Origin: Rhodothermales bacterium
GTDB taxonomy: Bacteria > Bacteroidota > Rhodothermia > Rhodothermales > JABDKH01
Length of the DNA: 38,458 nt
Reading direction: 5' to 3'
NCBI GenBank assembly: GCA_013002345.1
Contig: JABDKH010000141.1
Span: 1-38,458 of the forward strand
Part shown: positions 5,328 through 16,171 of the stretch, one piece after another
Layout: every line of letters begins with the position of its first letter
Numbering within the stretch: the first letter of the stretch is position 1
The notes under the pieces: generated by a model
Databases searched by the model: none
Seen by the model: only the letters and a program-made list of their open reading frames with translations
Told to the model about the DNA's origin: nothing
Made by a program: the position numbers and the translations under genes

Positions 5328-7199
5328 ATGCGAATAGTTACGGTCTTGTCGCTCGCGGCGCTTTTTATCCTGGGCACGTCCACCGTGTCCGCACAGGACT
5401 CCGAGTACAATCTGAACGTCCCGACATCCGACGATATTAATGTCGGATACAATACGGGTATTCACTCCGGTGCGCGAGACATCGCCGGCCCGCTGGACGG
5501 TGACGGTGACGGCAAGTATGAGGTGTATGTTGCCGACTACAGCGGCGGCGGCCGGGTGCACGTCGTCGAGAATGTCTCGCCGGACGTCTGGGAGCTGGTG
5601 TACAGTACGCCCGTACTTGACTCCACTGCCACGACCAACAACATCCGCACGATGAATGTCGGCGACATGGATAATGACGGTAAAGGTGAGATCTATTTTC
5701 TGTCCGGTCGGGGCTTCAGCGCCACGAACCCGAACATAGCAAACTATCCGCCAGGCATGTATGTCTTCGAAAATGTCGGGGATAATGACTGGGGTACCGC
5801 GCCGGCGACTGTCTTTGAGTTCAACGGTGACCTGCCGGACCGCTGGCGCGCAGAGCGCATGGACGTGGAGGACGTTGACGGCGATGGCCGCGATGAGGTC
5901 CTGCTGGCCAACAATGGCTCCTCGAACGACGACGATACGTGGTACGTGATTGGAGCATCGGGCGACATCGGTTCCGGATTTGAGGTCTTCGTCGAGGAGC
6001 TGAAGCTTGCATCCAGAAGCGCATCGTATGATACTCAGGAGCGCGGCGGCGGCAGCCCCTATTCAGCCATTGCAGCCGATTTTGACGGCGATGGCATGTG
6101 GGAGATCAGCCTGCACTCGTGGAATTTTTACAACTTTACGAACGCGCGGGCCACAGGAGTCGATACGTACACGACCCCAGAGGCCGAGAACCTGACCAAC
6201 ATCAACCTTCAGGCGGCATTTCCGGCCGACCATGTCGCGTTCTTCGGTTGCGTGGCTGTCGACATCAATGGCGACAACGATGATGAAGTCGTCTGCCCGA
6301 ACCTCGACACCGGTGACGGAAGCATCATCAACTACGAGGCGGGCGAAGAGACGCTGGAAATCGTGGCTGACAACATCGCAGTGGGAGTCCTCGAAGGGCT
6401 GTCAACGCTGGGCGTCGGGGCCGGAGACCTCAATGGGAATGGCTTGATGGAGATCTTTGGGACCGGCCTTTCCTATACGGGCGGTCAATTTGACAACGGA
6501 AGTTCCCCGGGCTGGATTAACAGGTGCGAGTACACGGCCGGCGACGTCGAAGATTCCGCGAGCTATGTGTGTGATCGGCTTTTCTTCGATGCCGACCGGC
6601 TGGAGTCGAAGTTCCGTCGCATTGAGCGCGACTCGGCAGGCGTCATGACCGTCTATCACGAGGATGGAGCGCAGGGGCCGGAATTCGTTTCGAAGTTCGC
6701 CTACCTGGGTGATGCGGACATGGACGGCAAGAACGAGCTCGCTTTCGCCCTGCAGGGCGTTGACGATTCTACGTTCGTTATCGACGAGGTCTGGGACGGC
6801 TCTGCCTATGTGCGCACGGTGCGCACGGCCGAGGCGAACCCGAACCGCACGTTCATGAAAGTTATTTCGGGCGCCGGCGACGTAGTCAGCATTGAAGACG
6901 AGTGGATCGTGCTTCCGTCCGACTACAAGCTGTACGAGGCTTATCCAAACCCGTTCAATCCGAGCACAACGATCTCGTTCGAACTGCCGATTGACAAGAA
7001 CATCCGGCTCAACATCTACGACATGACCGGACGTCTGGTGAGATCGCTCATCAGTGATCAGACTCTTGCATCCGGTCGCCACGAAATCACGTGGAACGGG
7101 CGGAGCGATTCGGGTCTCGCGGTCGCCTCCGGTACGTATGTCTACTCCCTCGAGTATGGCAATTTCCGTCAGAGCAAGACGATGGTTCTCGTCAAGTAG
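5328..7199 (+). CDS. Secreted FG-GAP/VCBS repeat protein with T9SS sorting domain
   Basis: A 623-residue exported protein. Residues 1-23 form a signal peptide ending VSAQ. The body carries repeated Asp-rich calcium-binding loops typical of FG-GAP/VCBS beta-propellers: DGDGDGKYEV near 58, DNDGKGEIYF, DVDGDGRDEV, DFDGDGMWEI, DINGDNDDEV, DLNGNGLMEI and DADMDGKNEL. Residues about 529-623 are a type A T9SS C-terminal sorting domain: YPNPFNPSTTISFELP, then NIYDMTGRLVRSL, then SGTYVYSLEYG. The protein is therefore expected on the cell surface or released through the type IX system. Its ligand is unknown; propellers of this type bind proteins or glycans. The gene has its own candidate promoter and a terminator-like hairpin just after it, so it is probably a single-gene unit. 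Confidence 0.9.
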   Translation: MRIVTVLSLAALFILGTSTVSAQDSEYNLNVPTSDDINVGYNTGIHSGARDIAGPLDGDGDGKYEVYVADYSGGGRVHVVENVSPDVWELVYSTPVLDSTATTNNIRTMNVGDMDNDGKGEIYFLSGRGFSATNPNIANYPPGMYVFENVGDNDWGTAPATVFEFNGDLPDRWRAERMDVEDVDGDGRDEVLLANNGSSNDDDTWYVIGASGDIGSGFEVFVEELKLASRSASYDTQERGGGSPYSAIAADFDGDGMWEISLHSWNFYNFTNARATGVDTYTTPEAENLTNINLQAAFPADHVAFFGCVAVDINGDNDDEVVCPNLDTGDGSIINYEAGEETLEIVADNIAVGVLEGLSTLGVGAGDLNGNGLMEIFGTGLSYTGGQFDNGSSPGWINRCEYTAGDVEDSASYVCDRLFFDADRLESKFRRIERDSAGVMTVYHEDGAQGPEFVSKFAYLGDADMDGKNELAFALQGVDDSTFVIDEVWDGSAYVRTVRTAEANPNRTFMKVISGAGDVVSIEDEWIVLPSDYKLYEAYPNPFNPSTTISFELPIDKNIRLNIYDMTGRLVRSLISDQTLASGRHEITWNGRSDSGLAVASGTYVYSLEYGNFRQSKTMVLVK

Positions 7200-7400: not shown

Positions 7401-10187
7401 ATGACTCGTCGTTCCACCTGGAGACTCTCACGCGCAATCTCGTCCGGCCGCGTCGTCGCACTCCTCGTTCTGACAGCCGCTTTGTACGCCCCTGCCGCTC
7501 TTGGCCAGGGAAAAATCGCCGGAACGGTCACCGACGGCAACAACGGTGATCCGCTGATCGGCGTCAACGTGCTGATCGCGGGCACGATGCAGGGCACCGT
7601 GACAGATGTCAACGGCGACTACATCATACTCAACGTTCGACCCGGCGACTATTCACTGGTGTACTCATACATCGGCTTCAAGAAGCAGACCGTCTCCGGT
7701 GTACGTGTCTCAACCGGCCAGACGACCCGATACGACGTTCGACTGACGGAACAGGTCTTCGAGGGGGAGGAAATCATCGTACAGGCTGAGCGACCGCTCG
7801 TCCAGCGGGATCTGACGGCCTCCAAGAAGACTGTCGTTGCCGAGGAGATTGCATCACTGCCCGTTGAAAGCTTCTTCGGCGTTCTTCTGACGCAGGCCGG
7901 CGTGAACACAGGACCCAGCGGCGAAATCCATATCCGCGGCGGGCGCTCGAACGAGGTAGCCTACCTCGTCGACGGTATGTCCGTGGGCAACCCGTTCAAC
8001 ACGAACGGCCTTGCTACGAGCGTTTCTACCGACGCCATCCAGGAAATGACGGTTATTTCTGGCGCCTTCAATGCCGAGTACGGCAAGGCCATGTCGGGCA
8101 TCGTGAATCTCGTCACCAAAGAGGGGGGCGATCAGTACACCGGCTCGATCAGCGCCTGGGGAGGCAGCACGGTCACCGCCAACGACGACGTGTTCTTTAC
8201 ACCTTCAGGCGTTGGTATGCGAAACTACACGCTGGAGGGCAGTCTGAGCGGACCGGTACCGTTCTGGAAGAAGCTGCGGTTCTTCGCCTCCGTACGGCAC
8301 GATGACGACGAGGGGCACATTTACGGGAAGCGGGAGCACTCGCCCGGCGACTCCGCTAATTTCAACGTCGATCCCTGGTATTACGAACTCCAGGGAACGC
8401 CGGTATCCCCTGACGACGTCGGCCCGGTGGATGCGGAGACTGTGCCTATGAATCCGAGCAAGGGCACCAACTTCATTGGCAAACTCTCGACGCGACCGTT
8501 TTCCGGTACGAAGATCGAGTACTCCTTCCTGCTCGACAAAGACGAATGGACGCCGTTCGATTTTGCCGACCGCTTCAATCCCGACGGTCTGGCGTCGAAT
8601 TACGACCTCGCCATGAACCACAGCCTGCACTGGACGCACACCCTGAACGAAAGGACGTTCTACACGCTGCGGGTGTCGTACCAGAAACAGGATTTCGAGA
8701 GCTACCTGTACAAGTGCGACGAGGCGTGCAGAGCCGGCGACACGCCTGTCGATCCCCGATACGTTTCAACCGGAAGCATTCTTGGATTTCCCGGCAACAA
8801 CTTCACCTTTGGTGGCGACGACAAGGGTCACGTGTACGAGTCCTCGCGGACCTTCCGTGGCAAATTCGATGTCACGAAACAGTTCGGTACGATCCACGAG
8901 GCCCGCGCCGGTCTGGAAGCCGAATTGACGAGTCTTGATCGCGAGAACTTCGTCGTACTGTACGACAACGATCAGTTTCGACGGCCGACCGTCCCCTCCC
9001 TCGAATCACCGCTTCACGACAAGTACGTGAATCAGGATGTTCAGCAAATCGCGGCATACGCACAGGACAAACTGGAATTCGACAACTTCATCATCAACGC
9101 GGGCGTGCGCGTCGAGCACTTCCGCCCGAACGGATTCACCGTGGGGAGCCTGCTGAATCCGCCGGAGCCGGGACTTGACCAGGAGCAAACGAATGCGCGT
9201 CTGCTCGCGGCCGGAAACAAGACGTACGTCTTGCCCAGAATAGGCGTTTCGTTCCCGATCACGAACCGAGGAATCCTCCATTTTTCCTACGGTCATTTCG
9301 CACAGATGCCACCCCTGCGCAACATGTACGTCAACCCGGAATTCGAGTTTGGCGCCGGCGAAACACCGACGTTTGGCAACGCCAACATGCGGCCGGAACG
9401 CGCTGTGCAGTATGAGATCGGATTGCAGCAGCAGATCAGTGACCAGCTCGCCTTCGACGTCACAGGATTCTTCAAGGATATCCGTGACTATCTGGCTCCA
9501 CAGAACGTGCAGTTCAGCACGATTTCAGGTCAGAGCAATTATGCGATCTACCTGAACAAGGACTACGCAAACGTGCGAGGCGTCACCTTCGCCCTGACGA
9601 AGCGAAGGTCACGCAACGGTCTGCTCTCAGCCACCATCGACTACACATTCCAGAATGCGGAGGGCAATAACAACGATGCGGGCGCCTTCTTCTTTAACTT
9701 CCTCAGTGGGCGGGAGACCGAGCTTGAAATCGTTCCGCTCGATTTCGATCAGCGACACATCGTTTCCTCAACCGTGACGCTCACGAAACCGGGCAACTGG
9801 AACGTATCGTTTATCGGCTCCTTCAGCACGGGCTATCCCTATACACCATCGCTCATTGACCAGAAGCTGGACCAGCTCCCGAATCAGGGACGCAAGCCCA
9901 CGCAGATCGACCTGGATGCCACCGTGTCCAAGCAGATCAATATCGACCGGTTCAGCGTGCGGCTGTTTGCCAAGGTGTTCAACGCGCTTGATCGGCTCAA
10001 TGAGCGATTTGTGTTCGACGAGACGGGCCGTGCGAGTTACTCGCTCAACGAGCGACTCAATGTCCATGCTCCGTGGAAATCTCTGTACGGACAGCCCGGC
10101 ATTCACACGCTCGAGGAGTGGGACACAAGACCACAATGGTACTCGCGCCCCCGCGAGATCAAGATCGGTGCGACCTTAAGTTTCTAG
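7401..10187 (+). CDS. TonB-dependent outer-membrane receptor with CarboxypepD-reg domain
   Basis: A 928-residue outer-membrane receptor. ATG 7401 is chosen over in-frame starts further upstream because it opens a signal peptide (residues 1-36, ending AALGQ) and has AAGGA about 8 nt before it. Residues 38-115 form a carboxypeptidase-regulatory-like beta-sandwich (GKIAGTVTDGNNGDPLIGVN). A plug domain follows at about 126-260, with EIHIRGGRSNEVAYLVDGM and the GAFNAEYGKAMSGIVNLVTK stretch. The remainder is a long beta-barrel ending in phenylalanine (KIGATLSF), as expected for BAM-dependent insertion. It should take up a bulky substrate using the TonB-ExbBD system, or act with the T9SS. No SusD partner follows; instead three genes for secreted or outer-membrane proteins follow with almost no spacing. 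The substrate cannot be told from sequence. Confidence 0.92.
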   Translation: MTRRSTWRLSRAISSGRVVALLVLTAALYAPAALGQGKIAGTVTDGNNGDPLIGVNVLIAGTMQGTVTDVNGDYIILNVRPGDYSLVYSYIGFKKQTVSGVRVSTGQTTRYDVRLTEQVFEGEEIIVQAERPLVQRDLTASKKTVVAEEIASLPVESFFGVLLTQAGVNTGPSGEIHIRGGRSNEVAYLVDGMSVGNPFNTNGLATSVSTDAIQEMTVISGAFNAEYGKAMSGIVNLVTKEGGDQYTGSISAWGGSTVTANDDVFFTPSGVGMRNYTLEGSLSGPVPFWKKLRFFASVRHDDDEGHIYGKREHSPGDSANFNVDPWYYELQGTPVSPDDVGPVDAETVPMNPSKGTNFIGKLSTRPFSGTKIEYSFLLDKDEWTPFDFADRFNPDGLASNYDLAMNHSLHWTHTLNERTFYTLRVSYQKQDFESYLYKCDEACRAGDTPVDPRYVSTGSILGFPGNNFTFGGDDKGHVYESSRTFRGKFDVTKQFGTIHEARAGLEAELTSLDRENFVVLYDNDQFRRPTVPSLESPLHDKYVNQDVQQIAAYAQDKLEFDNFIINAGVRVEHFRPNGFTVGSLLNPPEPGLDQEQTNARLLAAGNKTYVLPRIGVSFPITNRGILHFSYGHFAQMPPLRNMYVNPEFEFGAGETPTFGNANMRPERAVQYEIGLQQQISDQLAFDVTGFFKDIRDYLAPQNVQFSTISGQSNYAIYLNKDYANVRGVTFALTKRRSRNGLLSATIDYTFQNAEGNNNDAGAFFFNFLSGRETELEIVPLDFDQRHIVSSTVTLTKPGNWNVSFIGSFSTGYPYTPSLIDQKLDQLPNQGRKPTQIDLDATVSKQINIDRFSVRLFAKVFNALDRLNERFVFDETGRASYSLNERLNVHAPWKSLYGQPGIHTLEEWDTRPQWYSRPREIKIGATLSF

Positions 10188-10204
10188 CCTAATTGATTCA
10201 GCGC

Positions 10205-13200
10205 ATGACTGCGAAGACGTCAATCTTGACAAAACTCATTGCCCTGGCCCTGGTGTCCATCCTGCTCTCACCGACCGTGAGTGCCCAGGAAAATAGAACA
10301 AGGCAACGCGGATGGAACGTCCAGGAAGTATCCCGGTGGTTCGATTCCCAGGCGGCTCGCGGATCCACGAGCGCACAATATGCCGACTGTCCTGACTTCA
10401 CGTCCCGCCGGGATGTGATCATGAACGGTAACCGGATCCGGACTCAGATCCAGAATTTTGGATCGATTTCATCGCCCGGCAACCGGATTACGGACATTGT
10501 CTGGAACGACCTGGGCTACGGGTATGAGTTCGGTCCCTTCGTAGCTGCGGAGATCGTCGACGAAGGCCGGCAGGACCCGAAGAGTGTCGAACTACTTGAC
10601 GAACAGGGTAATCCCGTTCTGGACGACAGCGGCAATCCGATCTACGTCATGCACATCGTCTCGGACGGACTGACATCGAATGGTGGCGAGACCGCACCCG
10701 ACGGCCGTGAGTGGTGGGGCTGGCAGCCCATCCCGTGCGCTCTACCCGTCGGCGGGTTCGAGGGTATTGAAGTCGTCAACCCGGATTCTGACCTGATTCC
10801 AACCAGTGACGCCGAGGACCTGCCGCCCAGGGATGGGAAGCCCGATTCGTGGCCGGACTCCTGGTACAACGAAAACTTGCAGCAGTATGTCTGGCCTGGC
10901 GCACTCCAACAGGGCGCCTCCAACGCCGACAAGGAACTGCTGTACTTCATGAATGACTACTCGAATCGGGAGTTTGTGTATGAGCCGTTCGAGAACGACA
11001 CGACCCGGAAGGGACTCGGACTGGAAGTTGAGACCCGCATCTACCAGTGGGCGAATCCTCTGGCTGAAGACGTCATGTTCCTGATCTACAAGATCACAAA
11101 CAAGAGTGACAAGGATCTCGAGAAGGTCATCTTCGGCATGTGGGGAGATCCTCACGTCGGTGGTCCAAGTGACTGGGCGGACGACTGGGCGTTCTTCGAT
11201 CGTGATCGAAACCTCGTATATGCCTGGGATGACGACGGACGATCGGATCTTCCGGGTGTAGTGCCTGGCTACTTCGGTTACAAATTTCTTGAGAGCCCGG
11301 GCGTCGGGACCGAAATCCTGAATGGCGTCCTGGTCCCCGGAGACGGAATCGACAATGATGGAGACGGCCTCATTGACGAATCGTGGACGGACGGGATCGA
11401 TAACGATGGTGACTGGGAGGTAGAGAACGACGACGTGGGAGTGGATGGGCGACCGGGCACCGGTGACGAGGGAGAGGGCGATGGGGTGCCGACCGCCGGC
11501 GATCAATTCGACATCACGAAGCCCGGCGAGCCGGATTTTGAATTCACGGACATCGACGAGAGCGATCAGATCGGACTGACGTCTTTTGCGTCGCCGCCAT
11601 TTGCCGGATATCGGATTTCGAACGACGAACTTGTCTGGCAGACCATTCAGCCGGGCCGATTCGATGTTGTGCCTACCGAACCCGGAGACTACGTGTTTCT
11701 GTATGGTTCAGGGTCCTTCAGCCTTCTCGCCGGACAGACGAAGCGATTCTCGATCGCCCTGATCGTCGGCGACAACCTCGAAGATCTCTTTCTCAATGCA
11801 GAGACCGCCCAACAGATCTACGACGTCGGCTATCGTTTCGCACGGCCACCGGACAAACCACAACTCACGGTTGTCCCCGGCGACGAGAAGGTCACACTCT
11901 ACTGGGGCAGTGTATCGGAAGAATCTGAAGATCCGTTGTCGCGTGAGAAGGACTTTGAGGGGTACGTCGTTTACCGTTCTACAAATCCCGAGTTCAGTGA
12001 CCTCCAGACCATCACGGACATCAACGGGTCCAGATTCCTGTTCAGGCCGCTTACTACTTCGAGAGGTGTTGAGGCCAAGTTTGATCTTGACAATGGCCTG
12101 AAAGGGCCATCTCCGATTCCTTTCCCAAGACGAGGCGTTTCCTTCGACCTCGGCGACGATACCGGCATCGTTCATTCCTTCGTCGACTCGAACAATGTGA
12201 TCAATGGACAGACGTACTACTACGCGGTAACGGCGTATGACCGCGGGTTCAGCGGTGGCGACGAAGGAAGTCTGCAGGGTGGCATCCCGCCCTCTGAGAC
12301 GAGCAAGACCATCACGTACGATCCCACAACCGACAAGTACATCTTTGACGTCAATACGGCGCGGGTCATTCCGGGACCTCGAGTAGCCGGGTATGTTGCG
12401 CCGTCAATCGCGGCGGCGGGTGGGTTGATTCACGAGACGGGCAACGGCACGGGCGTGATCAACATCGAAGTGGTCGATGAGTTTGCCATTCCAGATGGCG
12501 GCCAGTATCGCCTGGACTTCGACAAACTCGACGGCCAGACCGTCTACTCCGTGGTAGACGAAGTCATCAAGGAAGCGTGGTTTGTACCCAAGCCCGGCAA
12601 AGGAGTCAGCGTTCTTTACCCGAACATCATCCCGTCGTCGTTCAGTCTGAGGACCGTCGACGGAACGGCTCTGCAAGAAGGTGTTGACTTCACCCTCAAC
12701 GCCGAGGGTGGGTCCGTGGTGGTCGTTGAGGGTAGCGCCAGTGCAAATGCTGACTCGTTGCTCGCGATGTTCCAGTACCGGCCGATAGCTGACAGCGACC
12801 TGTTGGATCTTGAGGAAGCCAACCCAATCTGGGAGGGGCTTCACGTCTCCGTTCTTGATCAGCCACTCGCGCTTGATACACTCCAGATCGGCTGGACAAC
12901 AGGTGGCGGCGGGGTCGGATTCGAAGTCCGCACCGCGACATCAGGTCCGGGACGAATCCCGCAACCATCTGACTACGAAATCACTTTCGGAGGTACGACA
13001 ACCTCGATCGTAACCGGACTGGAACTCCCGTTCACAATCGTGAACCTGACACGCGCCAACGAACAGATTGAGGCCTTCACGCCGGATCTAAACAATAACG
13101 GTGTCTGGGACCTGAGTGAACAGGTAATCTTCGTCGAGACGCTCGACGGCCGCCAGACCGCGACGTGGCAGGTGAAATTCATTGACGAGGGCGGCTTCCC

Positions 13201-13630
13201 GTCCGACGGCGATGTCTTCTATGTTCGCACGACCAAGCCATTTACGGACGACGATTCGTTCACCTTCGCCACATCCGCGGCGACCGTAGATGCGGATGTC
13301 GTCAAAGAGCAACTGCGCGACATTTACGTCGTGCCCAATCCATACGTGGCGGCAAACGAGATTGAACCTCGCAACCCCGTATCACGCTCCGAGCGTGGCG
13401 ATCGCCGATTGTACTTCGCCAATCTGCCTCGCGAGTGTACGATTCGGATATACACGATCGCCGGAGAGCTTGTCGATACGATCCAGCACAGCGGAACGCT
13501 GGACAACGGCAAAGCCTTCTGGGATCTGCGAACGAAGGACAACATGAACATCGCGTACGGGCTCTACATCTTCCATGTAGATGCGGGCGATGACGGATCA
13601 TTCATCGGCAAGTTTGCAGTCATCAAGTAG
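10205..13630 (+). CDS. Large secreted protein with T9SS-type C-terminal domain
   Basis: A 1141-residue exported protein of unknown function. ATG 10205 is preferred over TTG 10193 four codons upstream; it begins a signal peptide ending in TVSAQ (about residue 27). Residues about 379-437 form an Asp/Gly-rich, thrombospondin-3-like calcium-binding stretch (DGIDNDGDGLIDE, repeated as DGIDNDGDWEVE). A fibronectin type III-like region lies at about 549-680 (VVPGDEKVTLYWGSV, GYVVYRSTNPEF, YYYAVTAYDRG). The last ~100 residues, starting VVPNPYVAANE and containing RIYTIAGELV and AYGLYIFHVDAG, resemble a T9SS/FlgD-like sorting domain. The gene starts 17 bp after the TonB receptor stop and ends exactly at the PorV-like gene, so it is almost certainly in the same operon. 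It may be the surface partner of the receptor. Confidence 0.85.
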   Translation: MTAKTSILTKLIALALVSILLSPTVSAQENRTRQRGWNVQEVSRWFDSQAARGSTSAQYADCPDFTSRRDVIMNGNRIRTQIQNFGSISSPGNRITDIVWNDLGYGYEFGPFVAAEIVDEGRQDPKSVELLDEQGNPVLDDSGNPIYVMHIVSDGLTSNGGETAPDGREWWGWQPIPCALPVGGFEGIEVVNPDSDLIPTSDAEDLPPRDGKPDSWPDSWYNENLQQYVWPGALQQGASNADKELLYFMNDYSNREFVYEPFENDTTRKGLGLEVETRIYQWANPLAEDVMFLIYKITNKSDKDLEKVIFGMWGDPHVGGPSDWADDWAFFDRDRNLVYAWDDDGRSDLPGVVPGYFGYKFLESPGVGTEILNGVLVPGDGIDNDGDGLIDESWTDGIDNDGDWEVENDDVGVDGRPGTGDEGEGDGVPTAGDQFDITKPGEPDFEFTDIDESDQIGLTSFASPPFAGYRISNDELVWQTIQPGRFDVVPTEPGDYVFLYGSGSFSLLAGQTKRFSIALIVGDNLEDLFLNAETAQQIYDVGYRFARPPDKPQLTVVPGDEKVTLYWGSVSEESEDPLSREKDFEGYVVYRSTNPEFSDLQTITDINGSRFLFRPLTTSRGVEAKFDLDNGLKGPSPIPFPRRGVSFDLGDDTGIVHSFVDSNNVINGQTYYYAVTAYDRGFSGGDEGSLQGGIPPSETSKTITYDPTTDKYIFDVNTARVIPGPRVAGYVAPSIAAAGGLIHETGNGTGVINIEVVDEFAIPDGGQYRLDFDKLDGQTVYSVVDEVIKEAWFVPKPGKGVSVLYPNIIPSSFSLRTVDGTALQEGVDFTLNAEGGSVVVVEGSASANADSLLAMFQYRPIADSDLLDLEEANPIWEGLHVSVLDQPLALDTLQIGWTTGGGGVGFEVRTATSGPGRIPQPSDYEITFGGTTTSIVTGLELPFTIVNLTRANEQIEAFTPDLNNNGVWDLSEQVIFVETLDGRQTATWQVKFIDEGGFPSDGDVFYVRTTKPFTDDDSFTFATSAATVDADVVKEQLRDIYVVPNPYVAANEIEPRNPVSRSERGDRRLYFANLPRECTIRIYTIAGELVDTIQHSGTLDNGKAFWDLRTKDNMNIAYGLYIFHVDAGDDGSFIGKFAVIK

Positions 13631-13636
13631 GTGGCC

Positions 13637-14719
13637 ATGCACAACCAGCATACGACTATCGGTACAAGAACCGTGGAACGAATTTCTACTCTGGTACTCG
13701 CCTTGATGCTCGTGGCCGGATCCGCAGCAGCACAGGCGGATAACCCCGGCGGTGAGACTATCACCAAAGTCGGCACAACCTCGGCGCAGTTTCTGAAGAT
13801 TGGTGTTGGCTCCCGGGCCATCGCACTGGGAGGCGCCTATGTAGCAGAGGCAAACGATCTGTCGGCGCTGTACTGGAACCCGGCAGGCCTGACGCGCATG
13901 CGCGGAAGTGCCGTGCAGTTCGCATATACGGACTATCTGGCCGACGTCCAGTACAACTTCGCGGCTGTAGGTACGAATCTCGGGACTCTGGGAAGTGTAG
14001 CCGCTTCGATCATATTCCTCGACTCCGGAGACATGACGGTGCGGACCATATCGAGACCCGATCCGGATGTCGCCACGGCGGAGCGCTTTTCCGTGCAGGA
14101 CCTCGCGATGCAGTTGTCGTACGCCAAAGCGCTCACCGACCGCTTCTCCATTGGCACCACCGTCAAGTATGTCCGGGAAAAGATCTGGAATAGCTCCGCA
14201 TCCAGCATGGCGTTCGACATTGGACTTGTCTTCACGACACCCTTCGAGGCGCTTCGCCTCGGCGCGAGCATGTCAAACTTCGGACCGAAGATGCAGATGA
14301 GCGGGCGTGACATTCTGTTCAGTGATGATCCGGATGCCGTCCAGAGCGGAAATGTCGAAGTTGTCAACGCAGAGTTCCTGACGGACGAGTTCTCGCTTCC
14401 ATTGATATTCAGAATCGGACTGGCCTGGGACGCGGTCGCGACGGCCAACCACCGGATCGTTCTGCTCACGGATGCGGCTCACCCGAATGACAACAGCGAA
14501 TACCTCAATGTCGGCGGTGAATACTCCTTCCGCGATCTGATTTTCTTCCGCGCCGGTATGCGGAATCTGTTCGAAGAGGATGGCGAACAGGGCCTCACAT
14601 TCGGGGGCGGACTGAATCTGCGTATCGACCGGGCACTACGCGTCCGGGTCGATTACGCATACGCGGACTTCGGACGTCTCGAACAGACCCACTGGTTCAC
14701 GCTCGACCTTTCGTTCTAG
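13637..14719 (+). CDS. PorV/PorQ family outer-membrane protein
   Basis: A 360-residue outer-membrane beta-barrel of the PorV/PorQ (UPF0164) family. Residues 1-33 form a signal peptide (LVAGSAAAQA). The family hallmark follows: GVGSRAIALGGAYVAEANDLSALYWNPAGL, here split as GVGSRAIALGGAY and ALYWNPAGLTRMRG. The C-terminus ends in a barrel strand with a terminal phenylalanine (HWFTLDLSF). PorV is the T9SS shuttle that collects cargo from the translocon and delivers it to the attachment complex; many Bacteroidota carry paralogues of unproven role. GTG 13631 directly abuts the upstream stop and could also be the start; ATG 13637 is listed. Its place between two sorting-domain proteins suggests it handles those cargos, which is an inference. 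Confidence 0.85.
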   Translation: MHNQHTTIGTRTVERISTLVLALMLVAGSAAAQADNPGGETITKVGTTSAQFLKIGVGSRAIALGGAYVAEANDLSALYWNPAGLTRMRGSAVQFAYTDYLADVQYNFAAVGTNLGTLGSVAASIIFLDSGDMTVRTISRPDPDVATAERFSVQDLAMQLSYAKALTDRFSIGTTVKYVREKIWNSSASSMAFDIGLVFTTPFEALRLGASMSNFGPKMQMSGRDILFSDDPDAVQSGNVEVVNAEFLTDEFSLPLIFRIGLAWDAVATANHRIVLLTDAAHPNDNSEYLNVGGEYSFRDLIFFRAGMRNLFEEDGEQGLTFGGGLNLRIDRALRVRVDYAYADFGRLEQTHWFTLDLSF

Positions 14720-14731
14720 CCGGGAACCACA

Positions 14732-16171
14732 TTGGACACCCGCCCAACAGCCTATCGGAATCGTATCAGTCAGGCGGTGGGTGCCTTCATCCTGCTGGCT
14801 CTTCTGGTCTTTGGTCCCGCGACACAATCCGCGGCCCAGCTGCTGGATGACATCGTTGATGCCCGCGTGTCGATGGCAAAAGTCGTGACTACGCCAATGG
14901 GCAAGGCCACGTTTGTCGAGACACAAACGGATCCCGTGTCCTTCGAGTACAACGGTGTCGCATTCAGCGCGCGGACAAACGCCGGCGTAGTAGAAGGCTG
15001 GGCTCGCTTCCTGACCGACACCGGCTGGACGGAGTGGATCGAAATGCACATCGTGTATTCGGCTACTGGTGGAACGGTGATGGGTGGCGTCCGGGGAGAC
15101 GCGGTTAGGGCGGGTCCCTACGCACTGCGATTCAGCATCGATTCCGGGATGACGCTCCGCATCACAGGCACCGGCGTTTTTGACACGCGCAAGGACGTCG
15201 ACGGGCAGCCGGCATCCCACTCCGACTCCGAAGAGACCTCGGGCTCGTTCGGAGAACTGGCCGTCGATCCCCCGCCGCTGATCACGAGGACAGAATGGTC
15301 GGCCGACCCGTTCATCGGGACGCCCGTGCCACTCGCCGATCCGTCATACAACTACATGACGTTTCATCACGCCGCCGGGTTTTCGGCCACAAGTCGTGAA
15401 GACGGGCTTGCCCAGGTCAAGGCAATCCAGGACCTGCACCAGAACGTCCGAGGATGGAGCGACATCGGTTACCAGTTTGTGATTGACCGCGGAGGTCGCA
15501 TCTACCAGGGCCGCCCGTTCCTTGATGGCAGCACGTCTCTCGGCGAACTCCCACGACTCGCAATGGGAGCACACGTAGGTGGCGCAAACACAGGCAACAT
15601 CGGCATCTGCCTTCTCGGTTGCTACCATCCATCCGAAGGCTCGTTCTGCACGGAAACGATTACGACGGAAGCCTACGACACGTACGTCCGGACCTTCGCT
15701 TTTCTCAGCGAAAACTATGGAGTAGACCCGGCGCTGATCCGTGGACACCGCGATTTTAGTAGCACGGCATGCCCCGGCGATAACAACTATCGCCTGTTAT
15801 GCAGCGGACCAGTGCGCGACACCGGCTGCACGGGACCGCAACTCCGTGTCGACGTCCAGAACCTGATCTCAACAGGCATCGTTCGGCCGGACGATCTTAC
15901 GCTTTCCCAGAACTTTCCCAACCCCTTCGCCGACGCAACCGCGATTGACTACTACCTCAAGGAGGACGGGGTGGTAACGCTCAAAGTCTACGATTCGGTA
16001 GGTCGCGAAATCAACACTCTTGCCGACGGATTCCAGGACGGAGAGCGGTGGTATAACGTCACGTTCGACGGTGGGAAAGTGGCCGCCGGAACCTACTTCG
16101 TTCGTCTGGAAGTTCTCGGGATCGGTAACAAGAAATCGAGTCGTACAGCGACGATGACGGTCGCCAGATAG
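14732..16171 (+). CDS. PGRP-type N-acetylmuramoyl-L-alanine amidase with T9SS sorting domain
   Basis: A 479-residue exported enzyme. The start is TTG 14732, since no ATG precedes the signal peptide (residues about 11-36, ending QSAAQ). Residues about 40-155 form a beta-rich domain of unknown type. An Amidase_2/PGRP domain spans about 183-360: it opens RTEWSADPF and shows the zinc ligands H212 (FHHAAG), H339 (RGHRDF) and C347 (TACPGD), plus Y247. It should cleave the amide between MurNAc and L-alanine. Extra cysteines (C293, C297, C306, C357, C366) suggest disulfides outside the cytoplasm. Residues about 388-479 are a T9SS sorting domain (LSQNFPNPFADATAIDYYL, KVYDSVGREINTL, AAGTYFVRLEV). It starts 12 bp after the PorV-like gene and ends the operon. 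Export beyond the outer membrane points to target walls outside the cell, which is inferred. Confidence 0.9.
   Translation: MDTRPTAYRNRISQAVGAFILLALLVFGPATQSAAQLLDDIVDARVSMAKVVTTPMGKATFVETQTDPVSFEYNGVAFSARTNAGVVEGWARFLTDTGWTEWIEMHIVYSATGGTVMGGVRGDAVRAGPYALRFSIDSGMTLRITGTGVFDTRKDVDGQPASHSDSEETSGSFGELAVDPPPLITRTEWSADPFIGTPVPLADPSYNYMTFHHAAGFSATSREDGLAQVKAIQDLHQNVRGWSDIGYQFVIDRGGRIYQGRPFLDGSTSLGELPRLAMGAHVGGANTGNIGICLLGCYHPSEGSFCTETITTEAYDTYVRTFAFLSENYGVDPALIRGHRDFSSTACPGDNNYRLLCSGPVRDTGCTGPQLRVDVQNLISTGIVRPDDLTLSQNFPNPFADATAIDYYLKEDGVVTLKVYDSVGREINTLADGFQDGERWYNVTFDGGKVAAGTYFVRLEVLGIGNKKSSRTATMTVAR

Follow-up and report, generated by a model that had tools for sequence, protein, structure and literature searches.

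Among the outer membrane (OM) systems described so far, SusC/SusD (RagA/RagB) joins a TonB-dependent receptor (TBDR) to a surface partner and occurs in several paralogous copies, some of which lie near regulators or glycoside hydrolases (GH). For the type IX secretion system (T9SS), the excerpts of the literature cited here describe recognition of all type A C-terminal domains (CTDs) by PorV, the PorV family providing one general carrier for them in model species, and private shuttles for type B CTDs, substrates of this type often using a cognate shuttle encoded just downstream (PMC12618676). The loops of PorV carry type A substrates out of SprA (PMC10994853). Where a type B CTD is combined with PorP/SprF, as in SprB-SprF, the cargo gene is followed by that of its own OM shuttle, which is thought to fix the final location (PMC12618676), and in PorU:PorV and PorZ:PorQ a CTD protein sits on a PorV-family barrel, PorU and PorZ retaining their CTDs and being held at the surface by PorV and PorQ, respectively (PMC5562754). 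Each of these arrangements resembles in part a locus in a stretch of 38,458 nucleotides from a Rhodothermales bacterium (contig JABDKH010000141.1 of assembly GCA_013002345.1), the whole of which is called the window here, where the genes for a TBDR, a large T9SS cargo, a PorV-like barrel and a secreted amidase follow one another. The core of this operon is a three-gene cassette (TBDR, large T9SS cargo and PorV-family barrel) that is multi-copy and found across several phyla.

Unlike SusC/SusD, the module has a receptor whose best NCBIfam match (SusC/RagA, TIGR04056) reaches 93.9 bits, well under the cut-off of 368, so that it falls outside the SusC subfamily, and a partner that is a beta-rich T9SS cargo with a proposed PorV-like anchor instead of a lipoprotein. 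The absence of a SusD partner, pointed out in the initial annotation, holds: in a genome-wide search for Pfam family PF07980 alone (E ≤ 0.001), the sole match lies on contig C74 and none on the window's contig, C141. The module differs from the type B systems in its PorZ-like CTD, its PorV-family shuttle and the inclusion of a TBDR in the unit. It also differs from PorU:PorV and PorZ:PorQ, which are parts of the secretion machine, in being multi-copy and tied to an importer. Each part of the module has a known relative, and no description of the combination turned up in the open-licence literature, where the titles and abstract openings among the best-ranked matches yielded no account of PorV paralogues paired with TBDRs.

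The cassette and the conservation of its order

All genes discussed lie on the plus strand of the window, and their products were compared with the Pfam and NCBIfam libraries at curated cut-offs, weak matches being listed to E 0.1. The TBDR (7401–10187; ATG start, 928 residues) consists of a carboxypeptidase-regulatory-like domain, a plug and a barrel (CarbopepD_reg_2, Plug and OMP_b-brl_3). It is followed by the cargo (10205–13630; ATG, 1141 residues), which matches no Pfam domain at the cut-off but has a putative signal peptide, a super-beta-sandwich, further beta domains and a CTD, by the PorV-like barrel (13637–14719; ATG, 360 residues) and by the amidase (14732–16171; TTG, 479 residues). 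The genes, sizes and coordinates, as well as the gaps of 17, 6 and 12 bp, agree with what was first annotated. A scan for sigma-70 promoters (3 sites, versus 4.7 in shuffled sequences) and terminators (5 versus 10.3) was uninformative on the operon. Chance does not explain the gene order in the window, which is seen again in dozens of genomes.

With the PorV-like protein of the window as the single query, a scan covering 84,980 species genomes gave at least 79 loci, 38 of Rhodothermales type and 41 others. Where enough sequence was available, the cargo lies directly upstream of the PorV-like gene in 72 of 73 loci, and the TBDR adjoins the cargo in 57 of 61. Within the Rhodothermales-type loci the cargo CTD is directly upstream in 33/34 (at least 400 bp of upstream sequence) and the TBDR is next in 22/25 (at least 4.5 kb), compared with 39/39 and 35/36 in the other loci, whose taxon labels (some unspecific or doubtful) are Ignavibacteria, Melioribacteraceae, Neomarinimicrobiota/Marinimicrobia, Calditrichota and KSB1. 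The order is thus conserved in relatives and well beyond Rhodothermales, as had been proposed as a check, which supports a co-inherited module. The misses comprise a locus with a 31-residue match (L144), one with a small open reading frame (ORF) between TBDR and cargo (L067), and two (L090 and L137) in which the cargo gene is broken into a pair of ORFs (137 and 98 residues for the second one), perhaps through assembly frameshifts. Two contigs labelled Chloroflexi and Caldisericaceae (L108 and L122) also carry the module and are probably mislabelled metagenome-assembled genomes.

The window's own genome (G000; 4.1 Mb in 381 contigs) has nine PorV-family genes that pass the cut-off, plus a weak match. 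Contiguous TBDR-cargo-PorV cassettes are present on C141 (the window), C257 and C107. On C309 and C295 a cargo, truncated at the contig end, precedes the PorV gene, the position of the TBDR lying beyond the contig, and C277 shows a variant order in which two genes and then the TBDR come between the CTD protein and PorV. Contig C188 ends within a TBDR-cargo pair and may be the other half of C309.

Since the 79 loci were picked for similarity to a module PorV, a less biased test is given by all PorV-family genes of six genomes (73 matches at E ≤ 1e-10, in six of twelve genomes). Of these, 43 lie in TBDR-cargo-PorV modules and three more in the C277-like order, with module shares of 9/14 (G006), 11/18 (G011), 10/16 (G015), 12/17 (G037), 1/5 (G048) and 0/3 (G017). 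In three loci (L175, L179 and L187), 0.5–1.6 kb with one or two short ORFs separates TBDR from cargo, and two others (L147 and L152) have a short or split TBDR frame. The other 27 genes, named by position and size instead of equivalog scores, include genes after PorU-sized frames (L145, L169, L191 and L199), PorQ- or PorV2-like genes, tandem PorV pairs and others; none has a TBDR match above 100 bits upstream on the same strand within the roughly 11 kb covered for each. Across the five genomes examined for order, about two thirds of the PorV-family genes are linked one-to-one with a CTD cargo, and ten genomes analysed from outside the family labelled f13 hold 9–18 PorV-family genes each.

A second conserved pairing, without a TBDR, was seen alongside: a protein of about 520–577 residues is encoded directly upstream of a divergent PorV-family gene (L153, L161/L162, L185/L186, L194, L209/L210 and L217, and also in two f13 genomes), with weak CTD matches of 18–33 bits in L161, L185, L194 and L217. 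In G011, G015 and G037 this pair is followed by another PorV-family gene.

At a broader scale, the cargo-CTD model finds matches (E ≤ 1e-15) in 146 of a sample of 296 genomes from the phylum of the window, with up to 16 per genome, copy numbers being lower bounds as at most 16 candidates were scored per genome. In some families the match is single and weak, and may come from another kind of CTD protein. Within the order, the own genome included, a cargo match (E ≤ 1e-10) is present in 54 of 60 genomes and SprA in all 60 (59 over the cut-off; 1932 bits on C200 of the own genome). Of 13 distant hosts, 12 also have SprA in their genomes (11 over the cut-off), the exception being the L108 record set (1.6 Mb), which gave no match. 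SusD occurs in 45 of the 60 genomes of the order, so module and SusD systems coexist; in the window's family, matches are weak and present in 3/6 genomes. In G020 (two contigs, 3.4 Mb) the orthologous cargo (L054) is on the second contig (C2, 125,133 bases), perhaps a plasmid.

PorV paralogues and the CTDs linked to them

The PorV-like protein belongs to the PorV/PorQ family (NF033709, 227.1 bits, cut-off 90, E 4e-67) and stays below the cut-offs for the PorV equivalog (NF033710, 81.9 versus 250 bits), PorQ (NF033711, 102.4 versus 220) and PorV2 (NF052325, 89.2 versus 325). Its sole relative in the PDB with E < 0.5 is PorV itself (6h3i_F, E 7e-9). The true PorV of the genome is encoded on C325 (NF033710, 285.8 bits), directly after PorU (964.7 bits), which settles the question of whether the window's gene is the main PorV or a paralogue in favour of the latter, and rules out that it is the only PorV of the genome. 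A PorQ (C172, 268 bits against a cut-off of 220) and a PorV2-like gene (C321, 290 bits, under the cut-off of 325) are present as well. The remaining six PorV-family genes, the window's included, are each accompanied by a CTD protein, and all six score under the PorV equivalog cut-off.

The CTD of the window's cargo (residues 1041–1141; 13325–13627) scores 131.9 bits with CTD model A2. Even when matches down to E 0.1 are listed, TIGR04183, the model for type A, is not among them. The cargo likewise has no match to Pfam CHU_C, which we take to be the type B CTD model, and no PorP/SprF name at E 0.1, on the assumption that NCBIfam holds such models. A profile of the cargo CTD (A3) matches the CTD of PorZ weakly (5m11, residues 690–758; E 0.0056), PorZ being the closest solved relative found and rank 2 in the Foldseek search with the whole cargo (at a low TM-score, with the aligned range not shown). 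The CTD of PorU is another weak relative (profile E 0.49; Foldseek E 5.6e-4 for the whole model). Cargos of a long and a short class share one CTD family (i.e. one CTD model), and in a model of one short-class member (L164) the CTD superposes on PorZ residues 687–776 (Z 12.7, 2.6 Å, 87 residues, 24% identity). Because of the weak PorZ match and of the family shared with the short class, the cargo domain can be recognised as a T9SS CTD by profile and predicted fold. The description of the cargo as a sorting-domain protein can therefore be kept on the basis of its PorZ-like profile and fold, not on that of a type A TIGR04183 match.

In four single-contig genomes (G006, G011, G015 and G037), A2 gives 45 matches of at least 65 bits, every one of which is linked to a PorV paralogue: 42 end 90–293 nt before the start of the PorV-family domain, and three lie 6.9–7.7 kb upstream, in the variant order. 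The next matches, of 60 and 56 bits, are ORFs of 1440 and 1460 residues without a PorV neighbour. In the window's own genome, linkage holds for six matches above 80 bits but not for one of 64 bits (C328, subtilase with FG-GAP). Type A tails (TIGR04183) number 47–109 per genome, far exceeding the PorV genes. The gene immediately upstream of the main PorV (PorU in the own genome) encodes a protein whose CTD is also matched by A2, at 28–32 bits, in all five genomes.

The tree distances of CTD and PorV correlate among the paralogues within one genome, with coefficients of 0.93 in G006 (n = 9), 0.84 in G011 (n = 11), 0.65 in G015 (n = 10) and 0.76 in G037 (n = 12) and P values of 0.001–0.002 (1000 permutations). 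The correlation between TBDR and PorV is higher still (0.88–0.97). When the two classes are taken separately, the correlation between CTD and PorV is weaker; for the short class it has P values of 0.01 (G011), 0.039 (G015) and 0.003 (G037). The nearest PorV and the nearest CTD agree on the same module in 31 of 43 cases. The cassettes behave as inherited units.

Cargo fold, further clients and genomic context

The AlphaFold model of the window's cargo (built with 80 homologues; mean pLDDT 84.9, pTM 0.77) places a predicted super-beta-sandwich within residues ~62–708 (10388–12328), where 234–273 residues match GH15-, GH94- and GH116-type proteins. With VIA-align, the cargo superposes on glucoamylase 1lf6 (Z 19.1, 3.0 Å, 234 residues) and on 9ju0 (Z 19.3), and the sandwich resembles cyclic glucan synthase (Z 19.4) and dextran dextrinase (19.3), as well as glucodextranase, GH94 phosphorylases and GH116. 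The same region contains a DxDxDG-rich, calcium-binding-like insert, with conserved D/G columns at 380–426. No SusD-like fold was among the 50 VIA-align matches listed, which excludes nothing. Short-class cargos have ORFs of 615–880 residues and match the long-class model mainly via the CTD; the model of L164 (AlphaFold; pLDDT 76, pTM 0.79) likewise has a predicted sandwich resembling GH94 (Z 16.0, 4.0 Å, 271 residues), followed by a fibronectin-like middle part. The window's cargo is strongly conserved. For best alignments that span 80% or more of the respective window protein, median identities to Rhodothermales orthologues are 65% for the cargo (n = 26), 67% for the PorV-like protein (n = 35), 61% for the TBDR (n = 22), 47% for the amidase (n = 8) and 50% (n = 18) for an FG-GAP repeat protein encoded upstream.

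This FG-GAP protein (5328–7199; 623 residues; Pfam FG-GAP_3 2e-14) ends 201 bp 5' of the TBDR and is part of the locus as kept in Rhodothermales, being upstream of the TBDR in 16/18 Rhodothermales-type loci (at least 7.6 kb upstream) versus 3/28 others. It has a type A T9SS tail (TIGR04183, 38 bits). The amidase, of the peptidoglycan recognition protein (PGRP)/Amidase_2 family (PF01510, 8.7e-15, and PGRP structures), is found downstream in 34/34 Rhodothermales-type loci versus 1/37 elsewhere (L132, 24% identity). The initial annotation had seen the PorV-like protein as a shuttle serving both the large cargo and the amidase. The PorV paralogues, however, pair one-to-one with the large cargo, and the amidase has a type A CTD (TIGR04183, 23.9 bits, cut-off 23), for which the cargo-CTD model gives no match at E 1e-5, and goes with the Rhodothermales orthologues of the module only, so a shuttle shared by cargo and amidase was dropped as the default reading. 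The CTD of the FG-GAP protein (6906–7163) matches the cargo-CTD model at 29 bits, as do, at 32–41 bits, the corresponding proteins of G006, G011 and G037 and the one that corresponds by position in G015, so that to judge by sequence the FG-GAP protein may be a better candidate than the amidase for a second client of the PorV-like barrel.

Links to sugar use come from other copies of the module. On C257 of the window's own genome the order is LacI regulator, peptidyl-prolyl isomerase (PPIase), TBDR, cargo, PorV, CTD protein and an alpha-amylase with CBM48 and a T9SS tail, and a module of G006 (L146) has LacI, TBDR, cargo, PorV, a CBM9 protein with a T9SS tail and GH10. Other copies adjoin PF10091 enzymes, a solute-binding protein or a CBM4_9 protein, and KduI is also near one. 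In tallies covering the 25 commonest families, LacI accounts for 7/53 upstream neighbours, PF10091 for 4/57 downstream neighbours and Por_Secre_tail for 13/57 downstream and 7/53 upstream neighbours. The PPIase (PPIC type, ~560 residues; L028 16461–18134) directly precedes the TBDR on C257, and a homologue does so in 12/28 non-Rhodothermales loci with enough sequence versus 0/18 in Rhodothermales; it is possibly a folding helper.

A published counterpart may be the xylan locus of Rhodothermus marinus, in which LacI (Rmar_1067) and two enzymes are followed by a TonB-dependent receptor (1070), a hypothetical protein with a CTD (1071), a hypothetical protein (1072), a further hypothetical protein with a CTD (1073) and GH10 (1074) (PMC6987092). 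The terms 'PorV' and 'T9SS' are absent from the excerpted text on this locus (PMC6987092). Its order is shared with the GH10 copy (L146), by which Rmar_1072 would be the PorV-like gene.

Proposed role and its alternatives

Taken together, the module is probably (with somewhat better than even confidence) a widespread, multi-copy OM unit for glycan capture and import, made of a TBDR importer, a large T9SS-exported surface subunit and a cognate PorV-like barrel. The earlier interpretation of a self-contained surface module was partly right but too small, as the module is multi-copy, crosses phyla and has a cargo of carbohydrate-enzyme-type fold. The proposal builds on the observed gene order and its conservation, the one-to-one linkage of CTD and PorV, the paralogue status and the sugar-related neighbours of some copies, together with the modelled folds. 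To these it would add dedicated export, permanent anchoring, hand-over of the ligand and a substrate. The cargo would reach the periplasm via Sec, after which the PorV paralogue of the module, and not the general PorV, would collect its divergent CTD in the SprA translocon. The cargo would then stay docked via the uncleaved CTD on the PorV-like barrel, which would serve as its membrane anchor, as in PorU/PorV and PorZ/PorQ. Its super-beta-sandwich would capture the ligand (in many paralogues a poly- or oligosaccharide freed by co-encoded hydrolases) and pass it to the adjoining TBDR, the cargo thereby filling the role of SusD although it is no lipoprotein. As the hydrolase co-encoded in the window is a peptidoglycan-type amidase, cell-wall fragments (muropeptides or glycopeptides) are a first, rather doubtful guess for the ligand of this particular copy.

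Several observations weigh against this proposal. The cargo shares its fold with the super-beta-sandwich of GH15, GH65, GH94, GH116 and cyclic glucan synthase over much of residues 62–708, yet it differs from them in its sequence (~10% identity), in the lack of a helical catalytic barrel in the secondary structure of the models and in its proposed extracellular location, and a shared super-beta-sandwich by itself shows no function. Among the families tallied, a carbohydrate-active enzyme (CAZyme) or LacI is directly adjacent in a minority of modules, and the window's module has no such neighbour, the amidase alone being present. The xylan locus of R. marinus also has SusC/SusD (PMC6987092), so that the module is no simple replacement of the latter. 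In the f13 family five of six genomes have no cargo match and one a single weak match, SprA being kept. With regard to the pairing of CTD and barrel, model A2 was built from 12 module CTDs and favours module members. Co-divergence, moreover, is also expected from physical linkage alone and is no proof of contact; within the long class, significance is not reached in G006 (r 0.22, P 0.32), G015 (P 0.056) and G037 (P 0.096), with G011 at P 0.008.

The general PorV could also export the cargo, leaving the PorV-like protein as a structural OM subunit and anchor of the TBDR-cargo complex, like PorQ with PorZ. The PorV of Flavobacterium johnsoniae has a plastic pocket that binds diverse type A CTDs (PMC10994853), which means that tight linkage alone is no proof of dedicated pairing; the PorV-likes of all six modules in the window's genome score under the PorV equivalog cut-off, and PorQ/PorZ provides a precedent for anchoring (PMC5562754). 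Nevertheless, CTD class and PorV paralogue are linked one-to-one and the CTD is the common match of long and short cargos, which suggests that the role of the barrel is recognition of the CTD. Anchoring and export can, besides, go together. A purely structural role is accordingly considered unlikely, though worth keeping in mind.

PorV is FadL-like, and the PorV-like protein could instead be a channel of the FadL type through which a hydrophobic solute passes, its location beside a CTD protein being incidental to secretion. It does match Toluene_X (FadL) in Pfam, at 25.4 bits and under the cut-off of 29.7, and another OM barrel of these bacteria, BamG, superposes on FadL (PMC12611786). Set against its family score, the solved PorV as its sole close relative, the 45/45 linkage to a CTD and identified neighbours that are sugar genes more than lipid genes, such a channel is very improbable. 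A surface adhesin or coat, with a structural cargo (beta domains like those of S-layers or biofilms) and a TBDR that acts as sensor or signal transducer, is hardly more credible: S-layer and biofilm proteins (7ptp and 7c7u) are among the Foldseek matches and FG-GAP repeats are encoded nearby, but the TM-scores of the former are 0.07 versus 0.16 for carbohydrate enzymes, which reach Z 19, and the neighbours of other copies are catabolic (LacI, GH10, alpha-amylase, KduI and the solute-binding protein).

If the glycan-import proposal is right, it assigns a role to many genes of poorly studied phyla that are now called 'hypothetical', 'PorV/PorQ family' or 'TonB-dependent receptor', and it predicts glycan uptake loci that were missed by searches based on SusC/SusD; the xylan locus of R. 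marinus appears to hold such a module, whose products are annotated there as hypothetical apart from the TonB-dependent receptor (PMC6987092). If the barrels are indeed private shuttles, the rule of one PorV for all type A CTDs does not hold beyond the model species, and the choice of clients by shuttles could readily be studied with these paralogues. The chances are about even that the module represents a third OM nutrient-import architecture beside classic TBDRs and SusCD across the bacteria of the Fibrobacteres-Chlorobi-Bacteroidetes (FCB) group, in which the PorV family would be a diversified collection of private shuttles and anchors, each with a single client, and the general PorV would be the exception. 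By its appearance, the module looks like a little-noticed route of polysaccharide capture and import in many bacteria.

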